This document shows positions 1,892 through 49,709 of a stretch of 64,000 nucleotides of DNA, one piece after another (positions within the stretch are counted from its first letter, which is position 1; each line of letters starts with the position of its first letter). The translations under genes were made by a program, and so were the position numbers. The notes beneath the pieces are model-generated. The model saw nothing but the letters and a program-made list of their open reading frames with translations. It made no database searches and was not told where the DNA came from. Where the stretch lies: assembly GCF_009862785.1 (NCBI RefSeq), contig NZ_WWHU01000001.1, forward strand, positions 4,402,001-4,466,000, given 5' to 3'. Origin of the DNA: Gordonia sp. SID5947 (GTDB taxonomy: Bacteria > Actinomycetota > Actinomycetes > Mycobacteriales > Mycobacteriaceae).

Positions 1892-3176
1892 GGAACGGCA
1901 CGAAGGTCGGTCGTCGGACGTAATTGCCCTGCGCCCACTCGATCCCGTCGACGTCGACGGTGAAATCGGGGTGTCGCGAGAGCAGTTCGGTGAGGGCGAC
2001 CCGCCCCTGCATCCGGGCCGCCGCAGCGCCGAGGCAGTGATGATTGCCATGGCTGAACGTGAGGATGTTGCGGGGCCGGCGGGTCACGTCGAGGTCGTCG
2101 GCATCGGGACCGTAGACGTCCGCGTCGCGATTGGCCGAACCGTAGCAGAGCAGCACCTTGCGGCCGGCAGGAATGGTCACCGCGCCGTCGTGCGCGTCGG
2201 GCGGGAGATGCCCCGCGCGCCGGGTGTCCGGCGCCGGATACGAGACATCGCGAGTTGTGGTGCGCGCCAGACCTTGTACGGGCGAGGTCAATCGGAGGAA
2301 CTCGTCGATGGCACCCGGGATCAGGTCCGGGTCCGCGACGAGCCGTCGCCGCTGATCGGGGTGCTGATGCAGTAGCGCGACGCTGCCGCCGAGCAGACCC
2401 GTCGTCGTGTCGTTGCCGCCGGCGACCATCGTGAAGGTGAACGCCAGGATGGAGAGGAGCCCGGCGGGATCGTCGGGGTCGTCGGCGAGGCCTGCGGCGA
2501 CGAGCTGCGAGACCGTGTCGTCGGAGGGGTGTCGCCTGCGGTGGTCGACGAGTTCGGTGAAGTACGAGAGCATCTCCATCGTCGCCGCACCGGCCGATTC
2601 GCCCGCCGCCGCCATCCCGCCGACACCCGAGGCGGCGCCGACGATCGCTTGGGTCCAGCCGTCGAACCGGGGCCAATCCTCTTCGGGCACACCGAGATAG
2701 TGGGCCACCACCATACTCGGGAGCGGCTTGAAGAGCTCTCCGACGATGTCGGCTGGGCCGTCGGCGGGCAGTCGGTCGAGGCGTTCGGCGACGAACTCGC
2801 GGACCTTCGGTTCCACCTCGACGACCTGTCGCGGAGTGAAGCCGCGCGCGACCAGCTTGCGGAATTCGGTGTGCACCGGCGGATCCTGCATCACCATCGG
2901 CGGGTGGTCGGCCATGCCGATGGCATCGAGTTCGCCGTAGGTGACGGTGAGCCCCTGCGCGGAGGAGAAGGTCGACGTGTCGTTGGCGGCCGCCATGACG
3001 TCGGCATGCCGGGTCAGGACCCAGAAGTCGCCGCCCTCGGCACCGTCGGCATCGTCGGCCGGCACCCGGTGGACCGGGGAGTGTTGCCGCAGCGCCGCGT
3101 ACATCGGGTACGGGTCCGCCCACGACGGTCCCGATCGTAGGACGTACCGGACAGCGGAAGACACTTTGGATGTCAT
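1884..3176 (-). CDS. Cytochrome P450
   Basis: A bacterial soluble P450 of about 430 residues. Visible hallmarks are the I-helix oxygen-activation motif AGGNDTTT, the K-helix pair within IDEFLR, and the heme-thiolate loop FSHGNHHCLG with its axial cysteine near the C-terminus. It should be a monooxygenase that needs separate ferredoxin and reductase partners, neither of which is adjacent. The start is uncertain: the frame is open to a GTG at 3215, with an ATG at 3197 and another at 3176 (MTSKVSS). I use 3176 because family members start about there. It is divergent from mshA and overlaps the TetR gene downstream. Confidence 0.88.
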   Translation of the reverse strand: MTSKVSSAVRYVLRSGPSWADPYPMYAALRQHSPVHRVPADDADGAEGGDFWVLTRHADVMAAANDTSTFSSAQGLTVTYGELDAIGMADHPPMVMQDPPVHTEFRKLVARGFTPRQVVEVEPKVREFVAERLDRLPADGPADIVGELFKPLPSMVVAHYLGVPEEDWPRFDGWTQAIVGAASGVGGMAAAGESAGAATMEMLSYFTELVDHRRRHPSDDTVSQLVAAGLADDPDDPAGLLSILAFTFTMVAGGNDTTTGLLGGSVALLHQHPDQRRRLVADPDLIPGAIDEFLRLTSPVQGLARTTTRDVSYPAPDTRRAGHLPPDAHDGAVTIPAGRKVLLCYGSANRDADVYGPDADDLDVTRRPRNILTFSHGNHHCLGAAAARMQGRVALTELLSRHPDFTVDVDGIEWAQGNYVRRPTFVPFHV

Positions 3177-3285
3177 GTTTCGAGAGTGAGACACCATCGC
3201 GATTGTGTCAACCACCGCTCGGCGATTGGTCAGGGGAGGTCGGGACGGCGATGCGGCCGGGCCGAGCGGTCCCGCCGACTTTCTC

Positions 3286-3291
3286 TAAGGT
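3286..3291 (+). promoter_or_regulatory. Candidate -10 element of mshA (possible leaderless start)
   Basis: TAAGGT ends 6 nt before the mshA ATG, which would put the transcript 5' end at or next to the start codon. The adjacent GGAGGG is too close to the ATG to be an ideal ribosome site. No clear -35 element is seen. Confidence 0.4.
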
Positions 3292-3297
3292 GGAGGG

Positions 3298-4647
3298 ATG
3301 ACCAGCCCCCCGTTGCCGAGGCGCGTGGCACTCATCTCCGTGCACACGTCACCGCTTGCGCAGCCGGGTACCGGCGATGCCGGGGGTATGAACGTCTACG
3401 TCTGGCAGACGGCGACACGGATGGCGCGCCGTGGCGTCGAGGTCGAGATCTTCACCCGCGCGACGTCGTCGTCGGATGCACCGAGCGTCCAGGCCGCACC
3501 CGGGGTGACCGTCCGCAACGTGGTGGCCGGGCCGTTCGAAGGCCTCGACAAACGTGATCTTCCTGCTCAGCTGTGTGCATTCACCGCGGGCGTCCTGCGG
3601 GCGGAGGCCATGCAGAAGCCCGGGTACTACGACCTGATCCACTCGCACTATTGGTTGTCCGGCCAGGTCGGGTGGCTCGCGCGGGACCGATGGGGCGTGC
3701 CGTTGGTCCACACCGCGCACACGCTGGCCGCGGTGAAGAACGCATCCTTGGCGAAGGGCGACACAGCCGAACCGATGCTCCGGGTGATCGGCGAGCAGCA
3801 GGTGGTCGACGAGGCCGATCGCATGGTGGTGAACACCCAGACCGAAGCGACCGAGCTGGTGTCGATGTACAACGCCGACCGCTCACGGATCGACGTGGTG
3901 ACCCCGGGCGCGGATCTCGACGTGTATTCGCCCGGCCCGCGCGACTGGGCGCGGGCCGAGCTCGGCCTCCGCGACGATGAGACGGTGTTGACCTTCGTCG
4001 GACGCATCCAGCCCCTCAAGGCTCCCGACGTGTTGCTCGCCGCGGCGGCACCCATCGTCGAGCGGTCGCGCAGGCAGGGGCGTGCGGTCCGCGTCCTCAT
4101 CGTCGGCGGGCCGTCGGGTACCGGACTGGCCCAACCCACCTCTCTCATCGATCTGGCCGCTGATCTGGGCATCACCGATGCCGTGACCTTCTTGCCGCCG
4201 CAGTCCGCCGACCGGCTCGCCCAGGTGTACCGGGCGTCGGACCTGGTTGCGGTGCCGAGCTATTCGGAGAGCTTCGGCCTGGTCGCCATCGAGGCGCAGG
4301 CCTGCGGGACACCGGTGGTGGCCGCCGACGTCGGCGGCCTGAGCGTGGCCGTCGCGGACGGTCGGACCGGGGTGCTGGTGGACGGGCACGACGTCGAGGA
4401 CTGGTCCCACGCGATCGGCGGACTCCTCGCCGATCCCGACCGCCTGGGACTGTTCCGGCAGAACGCCCGGGCGCATGCCGAGCAGTTCTCGTGGGAGCAC
4501 ACCGCAACCCAGCTGCTCACCAGCTATTCAGGGGCGATGCAGTCGTTCGCCAGCCGTAACCCGGCGGCTGCGGGCGCGGCCACGGCGCGGCGCGGTTCCC
4601 GGCGCTGGCGCAGGCGCCGGTCCAAGATGAGTGTGGGACAAGGGTGA
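3298..4647 (+). CDS. mshA: D-inositol-3-phosphate glycosyltransferase MshA (mycothiol biosynthesis)
   Basis: The 449-residue protein is a GT4/GT-B glycosyltransferase closely matching MshA, which transfers GlcNAc from UDP-GlcNAc to 1L-myo-inositol 3-phosphate in the first step of mycothiol synthesis in the cytosol. Visible features are the N-terminal acceptor and nucleotide loop [20 protein letters not shown] (residues 16-35), HSHYWLSG, the middle [10 protein letters not shown], and the C-terminal donor-site block [20 protein letters not shown] (from about residue 321). The last 20 residues are a basic Arg-rich tail. The YbjN gene follows after 4 nt, as in mycobacteria. Confidence 0.95.
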
Positions 4648-48536: not shown

Positions 48537-48550
48537 TCGCAGGCGGTGGA

Positions 48551-48621
48551 TATCGATGCGGCGTCAGCGAGGCGCCGCATCAATGATCGTCGCGACGACC
48601 CGCTGACACCGCACTCATGTC
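48551..48621. repeat. Palindromic repeat, left copy flanking the AbiEi-DUF559 gene
   Basis: This 71-bp sequence aligns without gaps to 49571-49641 (55 of 71 identical). Its outer arms GCGTCAGCG and CGCTGACAC are complementary around their cores, and an inner hairpin GATGCGGCG/CGCCGCATC is perfect over 9 bp. It begins 14 bp past the SGNH hydrolase stop. Confidence 0.8.
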
Positions 48622-48718
48622 ACCCCTCGCTCGTCCACAGTCACGAAACACTCCACAGATCCGGGATCGCCCCGGGCACAACCGGTTTCTGTGAGCAGTT
48701 ATGCGCCACGCTCACGGC

Positions 48719-49570
48719 ATGGATCTGACCGACCTCCACATCCCGTACGGCGTGGCATCCTGGGCGCAGCTGCGAAGCCTCGGTGTCACGCAGACCGATC
48801 TTCGCCGGGCCCGCAAAGACGGCGATCTCCGGTTGTTGCGGCGCGGCTGGTATGCGACCCGGACGGCGGATACGTCGGTGGCAGCCGCGGTGACCTCGGG
48901 CGGGGTGGTCAGTTGCGTGTCGGCGCTGAGACTCCATGGGGTCTGGACTCCGCCCGGGCCGAGCACGATGCACATCCGTGGCCGCGAAGCGGCCCATCGA
49001 TCCGGCAAGCGCCGCTATTGCAAGCAGTACGCGCCGCCGGAGCGCGAGGTGGACGCCGTCGACGAGATCCGGATCGCCCTGCGGCATGCGCTCAAGTGCC
49101 TGGACGACGAGGGCATCGTCGTGGTGCGCGACTCGATCCTGCATCAGGACCTGTTGGAGAGGTGCGACATCGATGCGGAGTTCGTCGGTGCCCCTCGCCG
49201 CATCCGCCGCCTGCTCGACCGATGCGACGCGAAGGCCGAGTCCGGCACCGAGTCGATGGTGCGGCTCCGACTCCGGGCGCTGGGCATCCGGGTACGCACG
49301 CAGTATCAGATCGCCGGTGTGGGTCGTGTCGATCTGTTGGTGGGTGACCGCCTCATCATCGAGATCGACAGCGTGGAGTACCACGATCGCTCGCCGGATC
49401 AGATCGAGAAGGACCGCCGCCGGGACGAGGAGGCCACCCGCCTCGGCTATGTGACACTGCGGTTCAGCTATCAGCGGGTGGTGCACGAGTGGGAGCACGC
49501 CGAGGCGACCGTGCTCGATCTGGTTCGTCGGCGTGAGCACCTCAAGCAGCGGGTCGTGAGCCATCGTTGA
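48719..49570 (+). CDS. AbiEi-antitoxin-domain / DUF559 (Vsr-like) endonuclease-fold protein
   Basis: The 283-residue protein starts with a winged helix resembling AbiEi antitoxins (HIPYGVASWAQLRSLGVTQT, then DLRRARKDGDLRLLRRGWYA) and ends in a DUF559/Vsr-like nuclease fold: GVGRVDLLVGDRLIIEIDSV has the D-x(n)-E-x-D pattern, followed by KDRRRDEEATRLGYVTLRFS. No toxin gene is adjacent. It is the only gene between two related palindromic repeats exactly 1020 bp apart, suggesting that it moved or is maintained as a unit. ATG 48719 is preferred to ATG 48701. Confidence 0.8.
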   Translation: MDLTDLHIPYGVASWAQLRSLGVTQTDLRRARKDGDLRLLRRGWYATRTADTSVAAAVTSGGVVSCVSALRLHGVWTPPGPSTMHIRGREAAHRSGKRRYCKQYAPPEREVDAVDEIRIALRHALKCLDDEGIVVVRDSILHQDLLERCDIDAEFVGAPRRIRRLLDRCDAKAESGTESMVRLRLRALGIRVRTQYQIAGVGRVDLLVGDRLIIEIDSVEYHDRSPDQIEKDRRRDEEATRLGYVTLRFSYQRVVHEWEHAEATVLDLVRRREHLKQRVVSHR

Positions 49571-49641
49571 CATGGATGCGGCGTGAGCGGGTCTCCGCAT
49601 CAACAGTCGTTTCGACGGCCCGCTCACACCGCATCCATATC
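49571..49641. repeat. Palindromic repeat, right copy flanking the AbiEi-DUF559 gene
   Basis: Arms ATGGATGCGGCGTGAGCGGG (49572-49591) and CCCGCTCACACCGCATCCAT (49619-49638) pair at 19 of 20 positions, with an inner GATGCGG/CCGCATC hairpin. It starts at the stop region of the AbiEi-DUF559 gene and ends about 105 bp before hemL. Confidence 0.85.
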
Positions 49642-49709
49642 GGCCTCGGCCGAATCGGTGACCGGCGTCACGGGACCTGTCACCGCAGGCTGAGAGCAGC
49701 CTGAACGAT

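Follow-up and report, generated by a model that had tools for sequence, protein, structure and literature searches.

In the genome of Gordonia sp. SID5947, a single gene coding for an AbiEi-DUF559 protein is located between two similar palindromes, and the locus raises the question of what ties the gene to its repeats. The window, that is, the whole stretch of DNA analyzed, comprises 64,000 nucleotides (contig NZ_WWHU01000001.1, positions 4,402,001 to 4,466,000), and the gene unit stands in it between a GDSL/SGNH hydrolase gene and a class-III aminotransferase gene (hemL). The reading we favor, at slightly better than an even chance, is a class of gene-repeat pairs similar to the repetitive extragenic palindromes (REP) and their REP-associated tyrosine transposases (RAYT), in which each AbiEi-DUF559 protein has its own palindrome of ~75 bp, present as a flanking copy on one or both sides of the gene and as solo copies that vary in number and mostly follow closely after other genes, and the nuclease spreads the palindrome. 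The association of gene and palindrome is evident from the enrichment of palindromes beside such genes, the match within flanking pairs, the dispersal of the copies, the near-restriction of two families to one genome each, and a covarying hairpin. From this association we infer that cutting and spreading of the palindromes are the work of the protein.

Palindromes beside AbiEi-DUF559 genes

Relatives of the window gene were found with alignment A3; the first 36 loci (L171-L206) were inspected, followed by 60 paralog loci taken with flanks of 5 kb as far as the contig reached, those from other genera belonging to the same family (f1) as Gordonia. A palindrome was counted if it spanned 56-96 bp and lay within 450 bp of the gene, and control genes came from the same loci, more than 1 kb away. 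Such a palindrome accompanies 42 of the 60 paralogs (28/40 in Gordonia, 14/20 in other genera) versus 12 of 280 control genes, and palindromes stand on both sides in 18 paralogs (15/40 and 3/20, respectively) versus none of the 280 controls. Counted over the DNA of the 60 loci, 61 palindromes of this size occur in the 54 kb beside the genes versus 12 in 540 kb elsewhere, one of the latter (L263) matching the family of another gene in the same genome. Two long palindromes, at 1866-1944 of L238 and 4527-4621 of L312, are distant from any gene of the AbiEi-DUF559 family. When loci with the same flanking synteny are pooled, 26 independent ones result; at least one member has a palindrome in 25 of these, and at least one has palindromes on both sides in 11.

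The 60 paralogs are mostly top-scoring rows of the relatives searches and not a random draw, and the control counts, like the hemL-locus readings and the placement of solo copies, rest on heuristic gene calls (frame and third-position G+C). The idea of a palindrome arose from loci L179-L206, which hold 27 paralogs and the hemL-site gene of genome G001; 26 of those paralogs are within the 60, 16 of them with a palindrome, and among the 34 previously unseen genes 26 have one nearby. DUF559 genes in general were rejected as palindrome partners, since among 20 others outside the listed A3 matches a palindrome was near just four and on both sides of none.

Flanking palindromes match in a gene-specific way. 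In the 18 two-sided loci they resemble each other with a median score of 35.5, versus a median of 2 and a 95th percentile of 10 for palindromes of different genes (n = 909), and the pair matches in 17 of the 18, one pair being unlike. Between loci, palindrome likeness was seen for 21 of 23 pairs whose proteins share at least 65% identity versus 10 of 838 pairs below 65%; it is partly explained by descent because the close pairs are largely orthologous loci. In genomes G057 and G058 the gene occupies the same site, and its palindromes differ between the genomes but match within each, suggesting joint evolution of the two flanks. G050 and G069 each contain several unlike palindrome families, every one beside its own gene. 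We consider it very improbable that the palindromes are independent miniature repeats moved by another transposase, with the DUF559 gene as a passenger or a favored insertion neighborhood. Most copies of the window's palindrome family (R family) are indeed solo and some occur in genomes without a detected hemL-site gene, but the gene-specific flanking pairs, the several families in one genome, and the palindrome likeness that tracks protein likeness (the close pairs being largely orthologous) speak against a foreign transposase.

Genome-wide dispersal was seen in all four families tested, i.e., the Gordonia hemL type (counted as one) and three more. Among the 59 Gordonia genomes searched, the G048 family has 4 places, all in G048, and the G038 family has 23 distinct places in G038, several of them clustered ~120-160 bp apart, and one weak partial match in each of four other genomes (E 0.003-0.009). 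For the family of G069, from another genus and sought in that one genome, 11 places match along nearly the full query, including the two that flank the gene, and a further match covers 19 bp. We examined 68 dispersed places, which are not all the known ones and include some orthologous between genomes; the 65 that could be classified comprise 28 convergent, 31 tandem and 6 divergent gaps, and many lie within ~20 bp of a gene 3' end.

These positions bear on the possibility that the palindromes are immobile regulatory or structural sites, i.e., operators, terminators or other binding sites for the AbiEi-like part, through which the protein would regulate itself and other genes. Inverted repeats close to their own promoter are bound by AbiEi antitoxins, the left palindrome of the window stands 97 bp upstream of the gene, and a hairpin at the many solo copies close to 3' ends could be a terminator. 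Operators were rejected as the role of the palindromes, the divergent gaps typical of operators holding only 6 of the 65 classified copies, and the full-length families differing between genomes, the empty sites in close relatives, and the clusters of copies ~120-160 bp apart likewise speak against immobile sites. We regard a purely regulatory or structural role as unlikely.

The R-family hairpin and its copies

In the window, 48551-48621 and 49571-49641 are identical at 55 of 71 positions without gaps at an offset of 1,020 bp, as the initial annotation had described; the maximum over 100 shuffles of the 1.6-kb region in three-base blocks was 42/71. The symmetry axes extend each repeat slightly, to one imperfect palindrome of ~75 bp (Table 1). 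As single-stranded DNA, the right copy folds far better than its own shuffles (z of -6.6 and -7.9 for the two strands) and the left copy more weakly (-1.4 and -3.4).

Table 1. Positions of the gene and its two flanking palindromes in the window.
Feature	Position	Strand	Remark
Left ~75 bp palindrome, R family	48548..48622	.	97 bp 5' of the gene's start codon
Gene for AbiEi-like DNA-binding part and DUF559/Vsr-like nuclease domain, 283 aa	48719..49570	+	Start picked by likeness to relatives
Right ~75 bp palindrome, R family	49568..49642	.	Overlaps the gene's stop codon

For the search of the own genome, each window repeat served as a query, followed by a covariance model; matches with E ≤ 1e-9 were called full-length, and weaker, mostly shorter matches were left uncounted. 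This gave 11 full-length places, two flanking the gene and nine elsewhere. The repeats thus do occur mostly without the gene, an outcome that the initial annotation had named as speaking against its proposal; the point is not decisive, because a REP-like system predicts the same. In most copies outside the window the core resembles TCGCGACAATNATTGTCGCGA, and a single long hairpin can be drawn for the whole repeat. Two shorter hairpins with the R-family core but not its ends (G000:C1:1867235-1867288 and 2566523-2566572) may be ordinary terminators or decayed copies. With stricter filters, at which weak matches were lost, the first covariance model had matches in 17 of 59 Gordonia genomes at E ≤ 0.001.

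A stem under selection had been proposed from one compensatory pair, C48565-G48605 on the left and G49585-C49625 on the right. This pair is as described and understates the covariation: among 12 copies (ten from the own genome and two from G. hankookensis), 14 of the 30 pairs in the stem change on both sides (9.4 on average after shuffling, with 5 of 500 shuffles reaching this number), and among 37 copies from 12 Gordonia genomes, 24 of 30 do so (16.4 on average, with 0 of 500 reaching it). The structure was drawn from the same sequences and is hence favored by the count, but slid versions pair far worse (23-45% of cells versus 82%). The inner GATGCGG/CCGCATC hairpin, which had been thought to compete with the outer stem, is present in both window copies and peculiar to them among the aligned copies, and was therefore rejected as a competing structure. 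By inspection, no end tetranucleotide is constant across the 37 aligned copies. In Rfam, no family reached its gathering score; three microRNA precursor families matched the right palindrome below threshold, the best at 38.2 bits versus 90. The right repeat had no match in plasmid sequences.

Solo copies differ between relatives. One copy in G000, between an aldehyde dehydrogenase gene and a TetR-type gene (by reading), is lacking in G013, although the flanks on either side are ~91% identical; at a second site G000 and G013 carry the copy and G018 does not; and G000 and G020 have filled and empty gaps in reciprocal arrangement, one gene apart. Such sites represent gain or loss of the palindrome alone. 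A repeat pair at 2300-2740 of L088 (G020:C4:20000-25000) is a tandem duplication of ~364 bp including flanking DNA, and close pairs like it occur elsewhere in G020, G028 and G053. At 2224-2736 of L132 (G020:C4:96500-101500) a repeat lies within a 170-aa frame whose end matches a DUF559-type family, possibly the remnant of another paralog.

Probable vertical descent at the hemL site

The gene hemL was detected in 58 of 59 Gordonia genomes, and the best 30 of these loci were read. The DUF559 gene is present between the SGNH hydrolase gene and hemL in 11 genomes (G000, G013, G054, G050, G041, G020, G028, G053, G001, G049 and G038), seven of which have a repeat on each side. The initial annotation had conceded that a gene present at this locus in all relatives would count against it; empty sites do exist, since in G018, with hemL 94-95% identical to that of G000, and in 17 of 17 additional species whose loci were read (L114-L130), the hydrolase gene adjoins hemL and neither DUF559 gene nor repeat is present. 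The locus of G034 stops at a contig edge. In G025 the gene is gone and a repeat pair is left 154 bp apart; two other genes lie between hemL and this pair (3208-5426 of L131, G025:C1:1215000-1230000). In G049 a TetR/MFS-type gene pair (by reading) is located between the right repeat and hemL (2009-4116 and 4215-5058 of L082, G049:C1:1327000-1336000).

The same site in 11 genomes, together with a divergence of the gene that roughly parallels that of hemL, makes the unit look old and vertically inherited with losses, and not like a freshly mobile cassette. Several of the genes are altered, with a frameshift in G049, part of the nuclease core missing in G001, and an N terminus shortened or rearranged in G038. 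The two hemL-site repeats of G013 are 91% alike, while their orthologs in G000 are 76% like them; concerted evolution is only suggested by this, because orthologs of G013 and G049 are already 82-93% alike. Of the two ideas in the initial annotation, that of a REP/RAYT-like system built on an unrelated nuclease-fold protein is well supported, far beyond this locus, and that of a small mobile cassette less so, the unit here looking old.

A number of observations weigh against the gene-repeat pairing that we favor. By our criterion 18 of 60 paralogs have no palindrome and 24 of the 42 positive ones have it on one side only; at the hemL site, 4 of the 11 genomes (G020, G028, G053 and G001) have repeats downstream only, the contig of G053 starting inside the gene. 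R-repeat matches do co-occur with the hemL-site gene (genome-wide in 11 of 11 genomes with it versus 6 of 48 others), but this comparison ignores phylogeny, and gene status at unread hemL loci was judged among the matches listed. G025 retains about ten repeat places despite the loss of its hemL-site gene, and G004, G011, G012, G018 and G034 carry 1-3 repeat match rows although no hemL-site gene was detected in them. Separation of the families is not clean throughout, as place C27:109640 in G038 is matched by the R model as well as by the other G038 family. For the gene units, the pattern is one of vertical inheritance and not of recent movement. Neither an exact insertion boundary nor a target duplication, the mark of a MITE moved by a DDE transposase, was established: clean empty solo sites were few, the boundaries of the gene unit were sought at the hemL site and one other site (G000 versus G013), and the relatives were too diverged for exact ends. 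A nitrilase-like gene (by reading; G000:C1:1982236-1983798, L337) stands where G013 has a palindrome-DUF559-palindrome unit.

Predicted nuclease and relation to known systems

In the window protein an N-terminal AbiEi-like part is followed by a DUF559/MTES_1575 domain. Residues 184-272 of the 289-aa reading frame match PF04480 with 27.9 bits (above the cut-off of 20.6) and PF18741 with 33.7 bits (below 38.2), and the AbiEi_4 match is weak (20.7 bits, below 25). Residues E215 and D217 of the window protein are invariant. The predicted structure, an AbiEi-like part joined to a Vsr/I-Bth0305I-type nuclease, agrees with the AbiEi plus Vsr/DUF559 identity first assigned to the protein. Four proteins compared with NCBIfam had no match. 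Relatives occur in 57 of 59 Gordonia genomes (E ≤ 1e-12) and, across the whole family, in 93 of 401 genomes (E ≤ 1e-25); a single phage relative (34% identity over 67% of the query) is in an unannotated record. The Pfam matches of the four window neighbors are PucR, GDSL lipase, aminotransferase III and histidine phosphatase, which agrees with the SGNH hydrolase and hemL named initially; none of the four is an AbiEii toxin gene.

The nearest fold of the predicted nuclease domain, the EDxHD homing endonuclease I-Bth0305I, makes a free-standing homing gene a candidate. The palindrome would then be a long recognition site, a solo palindrome would be cut and repaired from a palindrome-gene-palindrome unit, which installs the gene, and recombination between the flanks would remove the gene and leave palindromes. 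I-Bth0305I dimerizes on a target of nearly 60 bp, as stated in a passage of PMC3943268, and the gene-less pair of G025 resembles a remnant. However, this remnant still has two palindromes and not one, most solo palindromes have no gene inside, and in two checked cases the empty site also lacks the palindrome. The nuclease also differs from I-Bth0305I and Vsr in being joined to an AbiEi-like part, outside an intron and flanked by palindromes. We consider a homing gene rather unlikely.

With REP/RAYT, the system shares extragenic palindromes dispersed mostly in convergent or tandem gaps near 3' ends and a dedicated gene flanked by the same repeat; passages of PMC3733652 place REPs chiefly in the gaps of convergent and unidirectional gene pairs, close to 3' ends, and describe RAYT genes as flanked by REPs or long inverted repeats. 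It differs in the protein, an AbiEi/Vsr-like nuclease by prediction and not a Y1 HUH transposase, in the length of the element (~75 bp versus 20-40 bp for REP in the same source), in lacking a constant GTAG or CGTC end, and in palindrome families specific to one gene. A RAYT was rejected as mobilizer, since none of the 59 Gordonia genomes has a match to the RAYT-type Y1 transposase (PF01797) at E ≤ 0.001; the control was positive in 5 of 14 named genomes. Hairpins near the ends are also the arrangement of IS200/IS605 elements. The window unit and 18 of the 60 paralogs have in common with them one gene and a hairpin near each end (abstract of PMC6006769), whereas there is no Y1 transposase and the protein matches DUF559, the palindromes are full-length, and no recent gene movement was seen. 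Unlike the AbiEi antitoxin of type IV AbiE, the gene carries its own nuclease domain. We consider the system to be of a new kind, with a proposed mechanism, as it lacks defining features of REP/RAYT, is not AbiE, and no earlier description was found; in the open-access literature, judged by titles and the starts of abstracts and exclusive of subscription papers and preprints, nothing links DUF559 or AbiEi to such repeats.

We hypothesize that the AbiEi-like part of a protein dimer recognizes the palindrome or its extruded hairpin, that the Vsr-like nuclease nicks or cuts the palindrome or a target, and that repair or replication then copies the palindrome into new extragenic sites. The gene itself, a selfish or semi-domesticated element, would keep to a single place or a few, and the solo palindromes would spread. 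Whether such AbiEi-Vsr-fold nucleases multiply their own cruciform-forming palindromes without a RAYT, as an independently evolved second class of bacterial REP-type systems, is in our estimate an even question. If so, REP-like dispersal would have arisen a second time from an unrelated enzyme, and a class of repeats in genomes without RAYT would be explained. The family would also supply many naturally matched nucleases and long, specific targets, palindromes being nearly always unlike below ~65% protein identity in the surveyed loci. If each protein is a nuclease with its own long palindrome, the role of these common and unexplained actinobacterial proteins would become directly testable.
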